The notes beneath the pieces are model-generated. The model did not search any database, was not told the origin of the DNA, and saw only the letters and a list, made by a program, of their open reading frames with translations. A stretch of DNA of 60,375 bases from Nannochloropsis salina CCMP1776 (Eukaryota > Sar > Eustigmatophyceae > Eustigmatales > Monodopsidaceae): positions 837,443 to 897,817 of the forward strand of contig SDOX01000007.1 in the NCBI GenBank assembly GCA_004565275.1. The letters are read 5' to 3'. Within the stretch, counting starts at the first letter, position 1. The number at the start of each line of letters is the position of its first letter. Shown in pieces: positions 24,830 to 56,914 of the stretch. Position numbers and translations under genes: made by a program.

Positions 24830-25107
24830 AAGTCTTTATGGCGAATATGGAGGAAGAAGAAACAATACATAAAGTAAATCGGGTACCATAGCCAAGTTAT
24901 CCAAGGCATTCATGTCACGCCAGATCCCAGCATCTTTGTCTGATAACGCCTCTATTTTTTCTGCCCCATACTCTGCGTAGTTATTTTTTACAACAATGAG
25001 CCAAAAATGAAAAAAACACCATGTACCACAAATACAGCAAGCCTCAAGAGTGAAGACGAAAGACTAATGCCAGGCCACAAGTGTCGCAGTATAAAGAAAA
25101 AAAAATG

Positions 25108-25226
25108 GGGGCGAACGGCGAATTGAACGCCGGACCTCTCCTACCCTAAAGGAGAATCATACACTAGTTGCACCCACAGCACACGCTCATCGTGCGCCTA
25201 AGAACAAGCCACTAGACCATACGCCC
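25108..25226 (-). tRNA. tRNA-Pro(AGG) with a 47-nt insertion in the D-loop
   Basis: On the minus strand the gene starts GGGCGTA and ends TTCGCCC (one U-U mismatch in the acceptor stem). It has an anticodon stem CTCCT/AGGAG around loop TTAGGGT (anticodon AGG at 25147-25145), a 5-nt variable loop, and a T arm CGGCG-TTCAATT-CGCCG. The D arm reads GTC-TAGTGG, then 47 extra bases at 25208-25162, then TAT-GAT. Removing the insertion leaves a normal 72-nt tRNA core. The A box (TGGTCTAGTGG) and B box are intact. The insertion contains a possible 7-bp hairpin (GCGCACG/CGTGTGC), and a CTAGT/ACTAG pairing links its two borders. It could be an ectopic intron, a partial 5' duplication, or a decayed copy. 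Confidence 0.8.
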
Positions 25227-27778
25227 GCTGATCAACGCTCCGTCTGCCAACCTTTGCGTCTATAAATTGAATATGCAAGGCGACATGTTCTTGGCTTCCT
25301 TTGCAATAAAATGCGCACGGGACGAGCCAATTTTCCGCAGGGCTGAAAAAATGTGCCTCATATAAAGAATCATAGCGGAAACTTGGTCAGATCGACTTCT
25401 ATTTGAAAATGCACTTTTCAATCTTTTCTTTCTCTTTTTCTGGTTTAGAAGTGCTTTCTTTTACATTATCCTACCAGGACATGTCCGGCTTATCCTAAAA
25501 GTTTTGCATGCGATGGCCTGAGCTGCATTCAGACTTCCAGTCATATTTCACAATTTTGTTTTGATGTACAGCCCGCGTTATATGAGGAATGCTCATAGGG
25601 TGTAAAATGCTTGGTTCCTGCATTTAGTTATGAGAAGAGGAGAATTAATCGATGTGCCAAAAAAATACACTCGGACGCGAAGACACGTCCTCAGTCACAC
25701 ATCCATATTATAACCCAATCGGATGAATTTCCCTTGCTATCAATGTCTTGTCGGCCATAAGAGATAGAGTGACGTTTCTCAATCGATGGGTATAATGGCG
25801 CATCTCAAGTCGAAACGACGAGAAACCCTGCGGAACTACAAAGGTGGCTTTATCCTTAGGGAAAAAAGAGTTCCTTGCTGTCATCCCTTCAAGGGAGTAT
25901 GTATGTAGAGTATAAATGTCCCTGCATTTTGAAATTAAGACTCATTACTTGAAAATACAAACCACCTAGCGGCACGAGATGAACAAGACGACGGATCTTG
26001 GATCGCAGTACGCTTGGAAATTTGTGATTTTTCGGAGGAAGAAAAGGAGGATTCTACACCAATGATACGCAGCAAGCTTCGTGCGTTTGCCGAGATCCCG
26101 GATTCCCCGGGAAGACGAGCCTTATAAAACTGAAGGTCGACACGAAGCAAGAACATCCTATCGTCCAACCTTCGAGGTGAGTTTCATATTCGTAGAAAGA
26201 ATTCTCGCAGATCAAGCTGGTATCGTGGCAACAAGACACGATCATTCAACCGTCTTCATCTTCCGGGGCGGCACCCATTGTCATCATCCTAGAAATTAAT
26301 TGCTATGGAAAAGTAGATTGCCCATTGATTGTAGAACAATTATATTACTCTGAGTGGCCCCATGAAGCAACGACACTCGACGATCTGGAAGAGACAGTCG
26401 GACATGGATAATATTGACACGAGCGAAGGGGAGGAGCAACGGAAAGAGTGGCAGAGAGGAGACGAGGGATGGGAGAGATGATGAAGTGCGAGACAGAACG
26501 CTCAAGAGGAGACTTTGTAAGCATATCAAAAGGTGGGCCATGTCCACGTCTCGCTTTGAGGTGAACAAATGCGTCGTCGAAGGGGGGTGGGAGGCGACAG
26601 GCAATGAATGTAAATACTTCTAGTCCCCCAAAAATCAAGAGCGTAAACGCGTACAGAACAGCATTCTGAGCGTGACGATAACACAGCATATGGTTGCTAC
26701 ATATTCTTTCCCGTAGCGTTGTATCTCTTTGAAGAAGTTTGGTATGTAGGGAACGTGTGAGCTTCAGCGGGCGATACGCTACTCTGATATCCGATACGCG
26801 TCATTTCTTCGTCATTATCTTCCATACGTCGACAACTTCATTGATTCTGTAATCCTCTTCCTCATAGGCTTCTTTCAAAATTTGAAGTGCTCGTTCAAAG
26901 TGCACGGAGTTTGATTTCAAGGATTGGTTCATATCTCGCGAATTTCCAGCTTGTTTGTTTCCCCTTTCCCGCGGAAGAGAGGGGTAAATAAATGAGCTAG
27001 AGGCCTAGAAAGAAGACATTTACTACCACGAAGTCGCGCCATGAACAACATTTGTCTGGAGCAACGGAAATGGATGGCATGCTCAAACAGGACGTCGCCT
27101 GAGCGCCCGGTTCCATTGCACTCGTTTCCCTCTCATCGCTCGCACGTTTGTGTGCTGAGAGCCGCTTCTGCGAGCCTCGTGTCCACTCCCCCCCTTCACT
27201 TTTTCCAGCCCCGCGTCGCAGGATCATGACACACGCGCCGCGTGCCTGTACGGCATGCCATTCGTGTGCTTGATGTTTTACTGGCGTGGGTGCGTCGTGG
27301 TGCCCCTCTTGAGGCGTGTGGGTTGTTTGGGTGTTGTCGTGCCCGCCCGCGCGAGGGCCCGGCGAAAGAGAGAATCGATGGTCAGGGGGGGGCCAGCCTG
27401 CCATCATTTTTTTCTTGGTGAGCACTTCGGGCATTCATCTCTCTCAGGCATACCTTCCGCGCCGCAGCCTTATGCGTGTCTCGACTTAATTGTGGCTATG
27501 CCTCTGGGGGAGGGTCAAAGTTTCCATGGAGGGAGACAGTTTTTCCTTGTCTGTGGGCGCAACTTACCCACGCGAGAAGTGAGGCCCTGCACAAACCCTC
27601 CGTGCCATGAGGCAACATAGCAGTTACCGATTCCTTCATGGGACACTGATTACGTTTGTCTACGACGTTTATCCGCGTCCCTAATCGCTCGAGTGTTCAG
27701 ATAGACACGGTCTGACACGAGACACGGTATCCCCACGTTTTCTCTGACACTCCTGAACTCCCCTACAACAGCGGCAAC
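25227..27778. other. Gene-poor region upstream of RPL10
   Basis: About 2.5 kb, AT-rich to about 26 kb. A minus-strand 114-codon frame with ATG at 26689 (stop at 26345) has a hydrophobic N-terminus (LYAFTLLIFGGLEVF) but no other support. The last few hundred bases should contain the RPL10 promoter. No repeats are recognised. Confidence 0.35.
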
Positions 27779-48319: not shown

Positions 48320-51300
48320 ATGTATCTACCGTTAAGCTACTGCTCCCTCTTCCTTATGGGAGTATCTTCCATCTTGAGCGCAGTTTCCCCACAATGCCCA
48401 CATTTAACGGTTAAAGCCAAAAATAGTCCATATCCCAAGCGCGGGATCTTGGCCGGGAAGGGAAATTTTAAGGTCTCCGTTACACTTCGCGCCAAGGATC
48501 CTATCGATGCTTTGAACATTCAGCTCCTGCTGCCGAAGGGGATGACCATGAAACGTGCAGTCACTCGTCCACGCTTGAGCCACCACATACAGCCCGAGAT
48601 TATTGAGAATTTAGATGGAACAACAGTTCTTTACTGGTTACAAATTAGTCTGGATAGGCCAAGAAAGCGTCGCTTTATGGCCAAGGTCCTGATAAGTCAG
48701 TGCGCTCCCGAGACTTTAGTCGTAAATGCGGTCGCTCATCTTGTGAATGCAACAAGTATCTCGTGTTTGACACCCCTATTCAGCCCAGCACTCGTGCGGG
48801 TGCGTTATCCAAATTTCAAGCGACCAGCAACTTGCGCTCCGACACCAGCCCCCTCAGTCAACCCTGCAGAGCCATTTACTGTATTCGCACCAGGACAGAG
48901 ATTCTCGCAAAATGACCAGCTAGCACCGTATGGGGATCGTCGACTTTCACCGCACTCACATCTCAATAACGATCAGGAACGCACCGCTAACTTCAATATT
49001 GGGCGTCGCCAGCTTGAAACCATCAGCACGCTAGAGGATTGTTCAGGATATTGCTCATTAAATTGGGCGCAAGGCGTGCCTTTCTTATTCAACTGGAATA
49101 ATCACACTCGTGAGTGCTATTGTTGTATGAGTTTGTGCACTCCTTTTGTGTTCGCTCCTGGTTTCGACATATACGAAGGAATACGTCCTGCAACGCAACC
49201 ACCTACACGAGCACCGTCAAGCCTTGCTGTGTTGCCCACTTCTAGTTCGACCGCTTCTCCTACTATTTCCACCATTCCAACCGTGTCTCCTACGACCCAT
49301 CCAACCCCTTATGCGTCTACGACACGTCCTAGTACACAACCCACTGGGGCTCCGACACTGAATCCTACAAATCTGGCGCCTACGACCCCGACCATGGCGC
49401 CCACGGTCGAACCAACGATGATTCCAACCATGGGACCTATAGTACAGCCGACAGAATCTCCGACAGTGGCGGTTACGCTGCAGCCGACGACATCTCCGAC
49501 CATAGCGCCTACGATGCAGCCGACTACATCTCCGACCACAGCGCCTACGATGCAGCCGACGGCGTCTCCAACGATGGCGCCTACGATGCAGCCCACAGTG
49601 TTTCCGACGGTGATGCCTACGATGCAGCCGACGGCGTCTCCAACGATGGCGCCTACGATGCAGCCCACAGTGTTTCCGACGGTGATGCCTACGATGCAGC
49701 CGACGGCGTCTCCAACGATGGCGCCTACGATGCAGCCCACAGTGTTTCCAACGATGGCGCCTACAATGCAGCCGACGGCGTCTCCAACGATGGCGCCTAC
49801 GATGCAGCCCACAGTGTTTCCAACGATGGCGCCTACAATGCAGCCGACGGCATCTCCAACGATGGCGCCTACGATGCAGCCGACGGCAGCTCCGACCATG
49901 GCTCCTACAGTGCAGCCGACAGCATCTCCGACCATAGCGCCTACGATGCAGCAGACGCCAGCTCCAGTCGAAAGTCTATCGCTGAGTCCGAGTGCAAAGC
50001 CAGTCACATCGGTTGTGAGTGGGGACTACGCGTATTTTGGGTAAGTATAAGCTAGGAAATATGTCAGGTAGTGCGCACTCGATTCTCTTTAAGCTGCTGA
50101 TAAGGTTATGTACACATTTCCTATTTGTAGGACTTTCACAGTACCAGGGCGTGTGGTAAAGGTGAACTTGTTCGACTTCAGTCGGGTGGGCGAAATACCT
50201 TTCAATTCGGATGAAAACACACTAACTTCATCGGTTGTCCTCGGGAACTACGCATATTTCGGGTAAGAGGAGTCTCAGAAAGCACTTACAAAGCCGGTGG
50301 CATTGCATGCTATTTGCGTTGCTAATAATCTTGGGAATACTTGATACACAGGACTTCCACTCGTCCAGGCAGAGTGATAAAAGTAAATTTGACCGACTTT
50401 ACTCGAGTGGGCAACCTGACTCTAAATGACGGTGAAGATAAATTAATAACCGCCGTTCTAAGCGGAGACTGTGCATACTTTGGGTAAGCAAAGCCTCAGA
50501 AATTTTGTCAACTGTAACAAAATTCTTATGCTAAGGTGATGATGAGCTTTGCTATGCCCTCTACATAGGACTCAAACTCAGCCAGGCATTGTCGTGAAGA
50601 TAAATCTTACCGACTTCACCAGAATGGGAAATCTCACTCTCGAGTCGGATGAAAATGAGCTACGCACGTCGGTTGTCAGTGGAAACTTTTTGTATTTCGG
50701 GTGAGTAAAGACTCTGAGGGAAAAGACGATGAAATAGACCAGCACTCTCTTTTTAGTTCCTGATAAGCTTGGCTATAACCCTCCTCCGCAGGACCGAGAA
50801 TTCAGGAATCATTGTAAAGGTCAACCTGACCGACTTTACTCGAGTGGGCAACCTGACTCTGAATGAGAACGAGAGACAGCTATGGACGTCTGTTGTAAGC
50901 GAGGACTATGCCTATTTCGGGTGAGCAGGGCCTGAAGAAAACGCACAGCGTCGTTGGACTTCATCGTCTTTGAGATGCTGATAAGCTTCTGTATATTTCC
51001 TCTGAGCACAGGATTTACCGTAATCCAGGCAAGGTGGTGAAGGTGAATCTCACGGACTTCACTCGCGTAAGTAGCCTGCCTCTTAATTCTGGTGAAAACT
51101 TCCTGCGCACGTCGGTTGTGAGTGGGGACCATGCATATTTTGGGTAAGCAAGGGCTCGGGAGCAATGCAGAGTGCTTCAGCACTTGATCAACTTGGGTTG
51201 CTGAGGAGCTTGGCCTCACTCAAAACACAGGACTAGCACTAGTCCAGGCATAGTCGTGAAGGTAGATCTTACCGACTTCACTCGCGTGGACAACTTGACT

Positions 51301-53909: not shown

Positions 53910-54313
53910 TGTGTTCACTCGAGCCAGAGTGCGGAGTTTGGTAGCTCGTGCCTATACTTTGACGGGTTACCGCTTTCGTTACCCGCAAACATCTATGCAC
54001 TGCTCATGCTTTATTTTTCTCGCTTGCCTTCTACATTGTCTGCTGAGGTCAACCCACGAGGTCGTAGAAGTAGCACATTGGTTCGGAATGAGATCCTGGC
54101 CTGAATCCCGTGGACATAAACGGAATCAAGGGATACAGACATTCTTGACATGGTGTAGTCGTCTATGAGACCTACAAAGTCTTAATGAGACATTGCAGAT
54201 AGCTGTATCCCGTTTGATTCATGTATAATGGGGTAATGATCGCACATATTCTTACAGGTCGACCAGTCAATCCGCACGCGACCATACTCAAGCACAAATC
54301 CACGCATCCAAAA
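53910..54313. other. Upstream region of the second surface-protein gene
   Basis: About 400 bp between the tandem array and ATG 54314. The open frame of the gene continues upstream to 54221 without a better start. I see no clear promoter motif. Confidence 0.4.
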
Positions 54314-56914
54314 ATGAAAGATTTCTCTTGCGTTCTCTTCGTCGCTCTCCTGGGCTTTGCAAGTATTTTCACCACCGTGTCTCAAAGGTGTCCGGGGCTT
54401 TCTCTGACGGCTAATGTTAAGCCAAATCCTCGGCGTGGGATCGTAGCGGGCAAGGGAATGGCTAAGATCACCGTCACGCTGAGGAGCAAAGATCCCGTGG
54501 ACAACGTGGAGTTTCAGGTGAACCTGCCGGACAGGCTATCGGTTGAGCGAACAGCAATGCGTCCGTCCTCGAAGTCCTATACACCGCCGCAAATTGTTGA
54601 GGATGCGGATGGAGTGACAGCTATTTCCTGGCAGGGTGTCGCTTTCACCAAACGCAAGGGGGGCAAACGCCGCTTTCGTGTCAAGGTGAAGGCTGACCAG
54701 TGTGCCCCTGAGACGCTCGCGGTGTACGCTTTCGCTTACCTAATGAATGCTACAGACACCTCGTGCATGACGCCGCTGGCCAACCCCGCCATCGTAAAAG
54801 TGCGATACTTGAAAGGCAACAAAGACGCGACGTGCGCGCCCACACCAGCTCCTACTGTCAACCCCACGCAGCCTTTTGTGCTCTTTGGTGAGGGCCTGCG
54901 CTTCTCTCAAGGGGAGCGGCTAGCCCCCTTCGAGGACCGTCGTCTTTCGCTGCACACTGGAATCAATAGGCATGAAGGCATCATCGCCCTCTACCATCCT
55001 GAAGATCGACTGCTGCAATCGATCAACACCCCGGAGGCTTGCTATGAATACTGCTCATTGAACGGGGGCGAGGAAGTACCATTCCTCTTCAGCTGGAATA
55101 CCGTGACCAGCCAGTGCTTCTGCTGCGCCGGGGTGTGCACACCCCTCATCGTCGATCCTGATTACAACGTGTACGAAGCGCTCTTACCCAGAACGCTTCC
55201 TCCGACCTCCATCCCTACTGCAACAGCGCCTCCAACGGCTCCCCCAACACCGACACCTACAGCATCGCCTACTCCAGGACCCACTCGTACCCCTACCAAA
55301 GCACCTTCAACGACTCCAACGGCTCGCCCAACACCGACACCTACAGCATCGCCTACTCCAGGACCCACTCGTACCCCTACCCAAGCACCTTCAACGACTC
55401 CAACGGCTCGCCCAACACCGACACCTACAGCATCGCCTACTCCGGGACCCACTCGTACCCCTACCCAAGCACCTTCAACGACTCCAACGGCTCGCCCAAC
55501 ACCGACACCTACAGCATCGCCTACTCCAGGACCCACTCGTACCCCTACCCAAGCACCTTCAACGACTCCAACGGCTCGCCCAACACCGACACCTACAGCA
55601 TCGCCTACTCCAGGACCCACTCGTACCTCTACCCAAGCACCTTCTTGGGCTACGAGCTTCGGAGGAAGCAGGAATGACTCTGGATCTGCCATTGCTGTGG
55701 ATGCATCAGACAGCTCCTACACTACCGGTAATTTCCAAGAAAGCATGACAGTAGGCAACACCACCCTCACGTCTGCTGGTAACGCTGATATATTCATCAT
55801 CAAGCTCGGCTCCAGCGGCAGTCCTGTCTGGGCTACGAGCTTCGGAGGAACCAGTAATGGCTTTGGATTTGCCATTGCTGTGGATGCATCAGGCAGCTCC
55901 TACACTACCGGTTATTTCGAAGGGAGCATGACAGTAGGCAACACCACCCTCACTTCTGCTGGTACCCGCGACATATTCATCATCAAGCTGGACTCCAGCG
56001 GCAGTCCTGTCTGGGCTAGGCGCTTCGGAGGAACCAGTAATGATGACGGAAGAGGCATTGCTGTGGATGCATCAGGCAGCTCCTACACTACCGGTTATTT
56101 CCAAGGGAGCATGACAGTAGGCAGCACCACCCTCACGTCTGCTGGTGGCTCTGACATATTCATCATCAAGCTGGACTCCAGCGGCAGTCCTGTCTGGGCT
56201 AAGCGCTTCGGAGGAACCAGTAATGACTTTGGATTTGCCATTGCTGTGGATGCATCAGGCAGCCCCTACACCACCGGTTATTTCCAAGGGAGCATGACAG
56301 TAGGCAACACCACCCTCACGTCTGCTGGTCTCTTTGACATATTCATCATCAAGCTGGACTCCAGTGGCAGTCCTGTCTGGGCTAGGCGCTTCGGAGGAAC
56401 CAGTTCTGACATTGGATATGCCATTGCTGTGGATGCATCAGGCAGCTCCTACACTACCGGTTATTTCCAAGGGAGCATGACAGTAGGCAACACCACCCTC
56501 ACGTCTGCTGGTGCCGCTGACATTTTCATCATCAAGCTGGACTCCAGCGGCAGTCCTGTCTGGGCTAGGGACTTCGGAGGAATCAATGTTGACATTGGAT
56601 TTGCCATTGCTGTGGATGCATCAGGCAGCTCCTACACTACCGGTTATTTCCAAGGGAGCATGACAGTAGGCAACACCACCCTCACGTCTGCTGGTGCTGC
56701 TGAGATTTTCATTATCAAGCTGGACTCCAGCGGCAGTCATGTCTGGGCTACGAGCTTCGGAGGAACCAGTAATGACGACGGAAGAGGCATTGCTGTGGAT
56801 GCATCAGGCAGCCCCTACACTACCGGTTATTTCGAAGGGAGTATGACAGTAGGCAACACCACCCTCACGTCTGCTGGTGCCCGTGACATATTCATCATCA
56901 AGCTGGAATCCTAA
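54314..56914 (+). CDS. Secreted stalked protein with seven SBBP beta-propeller repeats, intronless
   Basis: A single frame of 866 residues. ATG 54314 is chosen because it directly starts a signal peptide (MKDFSCVLFVALLGFASIF). The N-terminal and Cys-rich domains are clearly paralogous to the gene at 48320: the shared landmarks are RRGIVAGKG, KDPVD, QCAPETLAVYA, CAPTPAPTVNPTQPF, DRRLSLH, YEYCSLNGG and PFLFSWN. The stalk is five copies of a 28-residue Pro-Thr unit. The C-terminus is seven copies of a 61-residue unit beginning WATSFGGTSND and carrying GFAIAVDASGSSYTTGYF and DIFIIKLDSSG. This is the SBBP (seven-bladed beta-propeller) repeat pattern. Exactly seven units fit one closed propeller. 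Unlike its paralogue it has no introns. It is probably anchored to or shed from the cell surface. No C-terminal membrane anchor is seen, and the ligand is unknown. Confidence 0.85.
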   Translation: MKDFSCVLFVALLGFASIFTTVSQRCPGLSLTANVKPNPRRGIVAGKGMAKITVTLRSKDPVDNVEFQVNLPDRLSVERTAMRPSSKSYTPPQIVEDADGVTAISWQGVAFTKRKGGKRRFRVKVKADQCAPETLAVYAFAYLMNATDTSCMTPLANPAIVKVRYLKGNKDATCAPTPAPTVNPTQPFVLFGEGLRFSQGERLAPFEDRRLSLHTGINRHEGIIALYHPEDRLLQSINTPEACYEYCSLNGGEEVPFLFSWNTVTSQCFCCAGVCTPLIVDPDYNVYEALLPRTLPPTSIPTATAPPTAPPTPTPTASPTPGPTRTPTKAPSTTPTARPTPTPTASPTPGPTRTPTQAPSTTPTARPTPTPTASPTPGPTRTPTQAPSTTPTARPTPTPTASPTPGPTRTPTQAPSTTPTARPTPTPTASPTPGPTRTSTQAPSWATSFGGSRNDSGSAIAVDASDSSYTTGNFQESMTVGNTTLTSAGNADIFIIKLGSSGSPVWATSFGGTSNGFGFAIAVDASGSSYTTGYFEGSMTVGNTTLTSAGTRDIFIIKLDSSGSPVWARRFGGTSNDDGRGIAVDASGSSYTTGYFQGSMTVGSTTLTSAGGSDIFIIKLDSSGSPVWAKRFGGTSNDFGFAIAVDASGSPYTTGYFQGSMTVGNTTLTSAGLFDIFIIKLDSSGSPVWARRFGGTSSDIGYAIAVDASGSSYTTGYFQGSMTVGNTTLTSAGAADIFIIKLDSSGSPVWARDFGGINVDIGFAIAVDASGSSYTTGYFQGSMTVGNTTLTSAGAAEIFIIKLDSSGSHVWATSFGGTSNDDGRGIAVDASGSPYTTGYFEGSMTVGNTTLTSAGARDIFIIKLES
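55238..55645 (+). repeat. Pro-Thr stalk minisatellite, 84-bp unit, about five copies
   Basis: An 84-bp unit encoding 28 residues (ASPTPGPTRTPTQAPSTT plus ten more) is repeated nearly perfectly. The first copy has one Lys in place of Gln. Such purity suggests recent expansion. Confidence 0.9.
55646..56911 (+). repeat. Seven in-frame 183-bp repeats (SBBP blades)
   Basis: Seven units of 61 codons, very similar at DNA level. Variation is concentrated at two short stretches per unit (after SFGGTSN and after TSAG), consistent with variable surface loops or with conversion among copies. Confidence 0.9.

Follow-up and report, generated by a model that had tools for sequence, protein, structure and literature searches.

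The nucleus of Nannochloropsis (Microchloropsis) salina, a eustigmatophyte stramenopile, very probably contains a working tRNA-Pro(AGG) gene whose D-loop carries an ectopic intron at position 19/20, which would be removed by the tRNA-splicing endonuclease. The gene lies on the minus strand at positions 25108 to 25226 of the window, by which we mean the whole 60,375-nt stretch of DNA that was analysed. It appears to be one of a nuclear set of tRNA genes with introns in the D-, anticodon and T-loops, comparable with that of Cyanidioschyzon merolae. Judged from its sequence, the locus is most probably a real and working gene with an ectopic intron, of a kind already known but in a lineage for which we found no earlier report.

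Layout of the tRNA-Pro(AGG) gene

The gene is 119 nt long and gives 72 nt when its two exons, both on the minus strand, are joined. Exon 1 (25209 to 25226) holds the 5' strand of the acceptor stem (GGGCGTA), the 5' strand of the D-stem and the A box, TGGTCTAGTGG (25209-25219). Exon 2 (25108 to 25161) supplies the 3' strand of the D-stem, the anticodon arm with its anticodon AGG (25145-25147), a variable loop AGGTC, a T arm that includes the B box (25116-25132) and the 3' strand of the acceptor stem (TTCGCCC), followed by C73. The D arm reads GTCT...TGAT, and the 47-nt insert (25162 to 25208) stands after G19; cuts at 19/20 and at 18/19 are equivalent in that they leave the same joined product. 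ARAGORN recognized the joined 72 nt as tRNA-Pro(agg) and did not call the unjoined 119 nt, and an Rfam search of the locus returned no tRNA match. An earlier, sequence-only reading had described a tRNA-Pro(AGG) interrupted by 47 nt in the D-loop, restored to a 72-nt tRNA by removal of 25162-25208 and otherwise intact, including both internal promoter boxes. The gene proved to be just so, with every stem and both boxes kept.

The flanking sequence carries signals of its own. A TATA element is located at -38 (25261 to 25264), and past the 3' end a two-base trailer precedes a run of nine T residues (25097 to 25105) that, as read from the sequence, is likely an RNA polymerase III terminator. Uninterrupted tRNA genes of the genome have both signals too. 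Among the 24 nuclear tRNA genes that we located, TATA occurs between -45 and -20 at 12, compared with 4.3% of 4,000 random nuclear sites, and TTTT occurs within 30 nt downstream at 21, compared with 12.2% of 4,000 random nuclear sites. These signals suggest that RNA polymerase III would use the TATA element and the two internal boxes, A and B, to transcribe the gene and would stop at the nine-T run.

Elsewhere in the window, two long open frames (48320-50044 and 54221-56914) resemble each other in their N-terminal part and carry repeats rich in threonine and proline (PT, SPT); the second continues with repeats of about 45 residues.

A set of interrupted nuclear tRNA genes

The assembly that we searched comprises 26.5 Mb in 103 contigs. 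We ran a scanner over 294 kb of nuclear sequence with a score cut of 45; it demands the four stems and a number of fixed bases but accepts inserts in any of the D-, anticodon and T-loops. Every match above that cut proved to be a tRNA gene, the scores running from 50.8 to 66 (tRNA-Pro(AGG) scored 52.9), while two shuffled copies of the sequence gave none at 35 or above and the reversed sequence gave one match, at 35.1. B-box seeds were also used: all 54 nuclear matches of one seed set were scanned, in a second set all nuclear places but four were read, and for a further set 100 of 190 matches were taken, with some places read. The His and Gly(TCC) genes came from 30 B-box loci. Scanning another 68 small regions (8, 20, 20, and 20) at a later stage, without a separate control, yielded the Arg(CCT) and Gln genes, the latter scoring 55.9.

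The insert-tolerant scan, ARAGORN, and the 68-region scan together located 24 nuclear tRNA genes, of which 14 are uninterrupted, two have an anticodon-loop intron only and eight have ectopic D- or T-loop inserts, in some cases with more than one intron per gene, as in a set of the C. merolae type; because the search was directed and incomplete, eight of 24 is not a frequency. Isoacceptors absent from the 24 include those for Phe, Trp, Cys, Asn, other Pro and more.

Four of the eight genes have, like Pro(AGG) (47 nt), a D-loop insert but none in the T-loop: Lys(CTT) has 49 nt, Lys(TTT) about 10 nt, Arg(CCT) 51-53 nt, and His(GTG), with two introns, 48-49 nt in the D-loop and 16 nt at 37/38. Gly(TCC) (L057:1319-1522, G000:C19) has three introns, of about 49 nt in the D-loop, 33 nt in the anticodon loop and 50 nt in the T-loop. 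The T-loop is interrupted in Gly(CCC) (48 nt at 55/56; L015:1462-1580, G000:C52) and in Gln(TTG) (47 nt). The two genes with an anticodon-loop intron only are Tyr (15 nt) and a Val gene (33 nt; L019:1604-1710, G000:C36) whose anticodon we read as GAC, which is unusual in a eukaryote. When joined, Pro, Lys(CTT), Lys(TTT), His, Gly(TCC), Gly(CCC) and Gln were all called as tRNAs by ARAGORN; Arg(CCT) was left out of this test because no split of it fitted the set D-loop form. A search for other tRNAs with D-loop inserts had been proposed from the sequence, and the genome does hold further genes of this sort.

Eight of the nine ectopic introns are 47-53 nt long, and the four anticodon-loop introns measure 15, 16, 33 and 33 nt. 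A single mobile intron common to all was considered and rejected: the ectopic introns are similar in length, but their sequences, compared by eye, are dissimilar. An assembly error is unlikely, because the same type of insert recurs on other contigs. In Lys(TTT) (L016:1932-2014, G000:C99, minus strand), an 18-nt D-loop has about 10 extra bases and is without a canonical border helix; it may be a very small intron or simply a long D-loop. Next to tRNA-His, a B-box-like T arm (TGCGG TTCGACT CCGCT; L014:1473-1500, G000:C42) ends exactly where that gene starts, and we found no convincing 5' half for it.

Intron borders, splicing candidates and alternative readings

The canonical register places two bases in each bulge, those that end the exon and those that end the intron, and pairs the bases preceding them. 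The Pro precursor is predicted to fit this arrangement: CUAGU in exon 1 (25211 to 25215, minus strand) would pair with ACUAG near the 3' end of the intron (25164 to 25168, minus strand), forming a 5-bp helix in register 2/2 (p 0.047, 5,000 shuffles of the intron interior) with bulges GG^C and UG^U. The computed spliced D-loop, AGUGGUA, is the same as the D-loops of tRNA-Thr(TGT) and tRNA-Ala(TGC) in this genome. Judged against the same number of intron-interior shuffles, the other borders with helices were Lys(CTT) (GUUG with CAAC, product AGUUGGUA, p 0.084) and the T-loop borders of Gly(TCC) (CCGGG with CCUGG, p 0.013), Gly(CCC) (CGGG with CCUG, p 0.117) and Gln (UGGG with CCCG, p 0.117); for these last three, computed excision at 55/56 restores UUCGA T-loops. 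The D border of His forms a weak helix of 3 bp (p 0.38), and our set rule gave no canonical-register border helix for Lys(TTT), the D-loop of Gly(TCC) or Arg(CCT). Under a laxer rule, Arg(CCT) pairs AGG with CCU in the canonical register, with the product AGAGGAU. A border helix of at least 4 bp in the canonical register is thus predicted for five of the nine ectopic introns, and the Fisher combined p over all nine is 0.035, which we regard as moderate evidence that these would be introns of the endonuclease type.

Folding gave a mixed picture. Folded without constraints, the Pro precursor (z -2.14, with 4 of 200 shuffles as good) forms the CUAGU/ACUAG helix and the hairpin of the intron as well as the anticodon and T arms, together with a UAUG/UAUG helix in place of the D-stem and an acceptor stem of 5 bp. 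The pairing of CTAGT with ACTAG noticed in the sequence-only reading stands, and the fold that it recommended, as a check for a bulge-helix-bulge, returned the border helix, with the D-stem missing. That reading gave the insert a 7-bp hairpin; we instead predict 16 interrupted base pairs in three blocks (4+4+8; 25168-25207), with a stability only slightly above that of shuffled sequences (z -1.85; 11 of 200 were as good). Full-length His folds into a complete cloverleaf with both introns as hairpins, and full-length Lys(CTT), Arg(CCT), Gly(CCC) and Gln gave no clean cloverleaf. The D-arm piece of Lys(CTT), folded alone, forms the D-stem and the GUUG/CAAC helix with two 3-nt bulges.

Candidate genes for both an endonuclease and a ligase, as introns with bulge-helix-bulge borders would need, are present in the genome. 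The endonuclease domain PF01974 was matched at two loci, in two pieces on C78 (one above the cut-off) and below the cut-off on C55; by our own reading of their residues, the former protein looks Sen34-like and the latter Sen2-like. PF12928, the Sen54 N-terminal family, matched on C52 (E 8.4e-12). An RtcB match (E 5.2e-156) lies on C93, and its reported frame contains a single TAG. Sen15 was not found in a genome search whose controls included no eukaryote and which a short, divergent protein can escape. With these candidates, the tRNA-splicing endonuclease would cleave both bulges of the Pro precursor and RtcB would ligate the exons, so that the joined tRNA-Pro would carry the D-loop AGUGGUA.

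The alternative that fares best, although we consider it quite improbable, is that the locus is a pseudogene, a tRNA-Pro broken by a partial 5' duplication or a random insertion and left unspliced. The right end of the insert does resemble the 5' part of the gene, and the sequence-only reading had made partial duplication its main alternative. That likeness counts for less here: the look-alike, ACTAGTG, holds the very bases that pair with CTAGT in exon 1, and CTAG is its own reverse complement. According to the portion of PMC4090602 that we drew on, short D- or T-arm insertions in one of many synonymous eukaryotic tRNA genes have mostly been deemed pseudogenes. For Pro, no synonymous copy emerged: a genome DNA search with the joined gene, which reaches close copies only, found the two exons of its own locus and nothing else, and a Pro anticodon-arm pattern matched exactly at that locus alone. 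The same pattern had 13 one-mismatch places, compared with 14 in the control; none was a tRNA in the scans, and six were inspected by eye. Normal tRNA-Pro(AGG) genes elsewhere, which would have favored a pseudogene, were thus not encountered by DNA search at close-copy sensitivity or by anticodon-arm pattern, and the latter revealed no other tRNA-Pro gene (TGG, CGG).

A genome search of the same reach (close copies only) with the seven other joined tRNAs led back to known loci in all 12 of its matches. Lys(CTT), Arg(CCT), His, Gly(CCC) and Gln were each recovered as split exons, and Lys(TTT) as a single match with a gap. Gly(TCC) was missed at its own locus, so the search is uninformative for this gene; for Pro and the six remaining genes, no uninterrupted copy was detected at close-copy sensitivity. 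That the genome search for further copies was incomplete speaks for a pseudogene. Against it, all stems and boxes of the tRNA-Pro are preserved, like inserts occur in seven more tRNA genes, six of them with no intact copy found, and the border pairing of Pro would restore a standard D-loop.

That the mature tRNA keeps the insert as an enlarged D-loop seems very unlikely to us. Lys(TTT), with its few extra bases, might be a case of a long D-loop, but an insert of 47 nt would make the D arm of tRNA-Pro more than twice as large, the border pairing and the product loop fit excision, and some genes have inserts in the T-loop and anticodon loop as well. Group I and group II introns are far longer than the Pro insert. 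Removal by another route, whether spliceosomal or self-splicing (group I or II), is least credible of all: it could draw on the four of nine ectopic introns that lack a border helix of at least 4 bp in the canonical register, but GT...AG ends are missing from the Pro insert in both equivalent registers, no Rfam family matched at the insert and the genome has endonuclease and RtcB candidates. An ectopic intron cut out by the tRNA-splicing endonuclease remains our preferred reading.

Significance and comparison with known systems

The accepted position of introns in eukaryotic nuclear tRNAs is 37/38, where the endonuclease uses the body of the tRNA to measure its cut. Exceptions given in the parts of the literature that we drew on are a red alga and nucleomorphs (PMC4033280, PMC4090602). 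Our analysis supports the D-loop intron first proposed from the sequence, and the host is a stramenopile. If indispensable tRNAs of such an organism have introns in their D- and T-loops, eukaryotic endonucleases would be seen to make ectopic cuts more widely. Nannochloropsis is transformable (PMC6953503), and therefore how the enzyme finds ectopic sites becomes testable. In the portions of the open-licence literature consulted, we found no earlier report of tRNA genes of this kind from a stramenopile nucleus; the N. salina nuclear genome note makes no mention of tRNA genes (PMC6953503), and those of N. oceanica, as far as the sections consulted describe them, were predicted with tRNAscan-SE, and those sections say nothing about tRNA introns (PMC6610115).

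We speculated that Nannochloropsis might have kept the intron-rich tRNA genes of a red-algal endosymbiont nucleus and used them as its own cytosolic tRNAs, an origin that we consider unlikely. If it were true, tRNA introns such as that of Gly(CCC) at 55/56 would be direct genetic traces left by that nucleus and would bear on the proposal, as set out in the part of PMC6610115 used here, that the Nannochloropsis nucleus is mainly of red-algal symbiont descent. Intron sites held in common could separate such descent from independent gain.

Three known systems invite comparison, each through the portions of the sources available to us. The tRNA introns of archaea with bulge-helix-bulge borders likewise have a border helix with bulges and occupy noncanonical sites, including 20/21 (PMC4090602), but they belong to another domain with a different endonuclease make-up, and their usual helix is 4 bp, whereas that of Pro is 5 bp. 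The nucleomorph of Guillardia theta has tRNA introns in the D and T arms, with two or three in some genes, and their excision was demonstrated by RT-PCR (PMC4090602). N. salina shares this arrangement of introns at the level of sequence; it differs in that the genes sit in a main nucleus and have inserts of mostly 47-53 nt, whereas the nucleomorph is a relict endosymbiont nucleus with inserts of 3-24 nt.

The closest likeness is to C. merolae, a red alga rather than a stramenopile and, as of 2014, the only eukaryotic genome named for multiple-intron tRNAs in the part of PMC4033280 consulted. Its tRNA-Gly(CCC) intron lies at 55/56, as it does in N. salina, where 56/57 gives the same product, and this common site can be due to chance. 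In C. merolae that intron is 13 bp and the gene is permuted, whereas eight of the nine ectopic introns of N. salina are 47-53 nt, and no permuted tRNA gene was found in 296 kb of its nuclear sequence, searched for the 37/38 junction only. C. merolae tRNA genes have up to three introns, in the D, anticodon and T arms, with bulge-helix-bulge borders and TATA-like upstream elements, and no Sen15 is recognised (PMC3978253, PMC9602550). N. salina resembles it in each of these respects: ectopic introns in the same three arms and up to three per gene, predicted bulge-helix-bulge borders, a Sen15 that was not found in our genome search, and TATA-like elements upstream.
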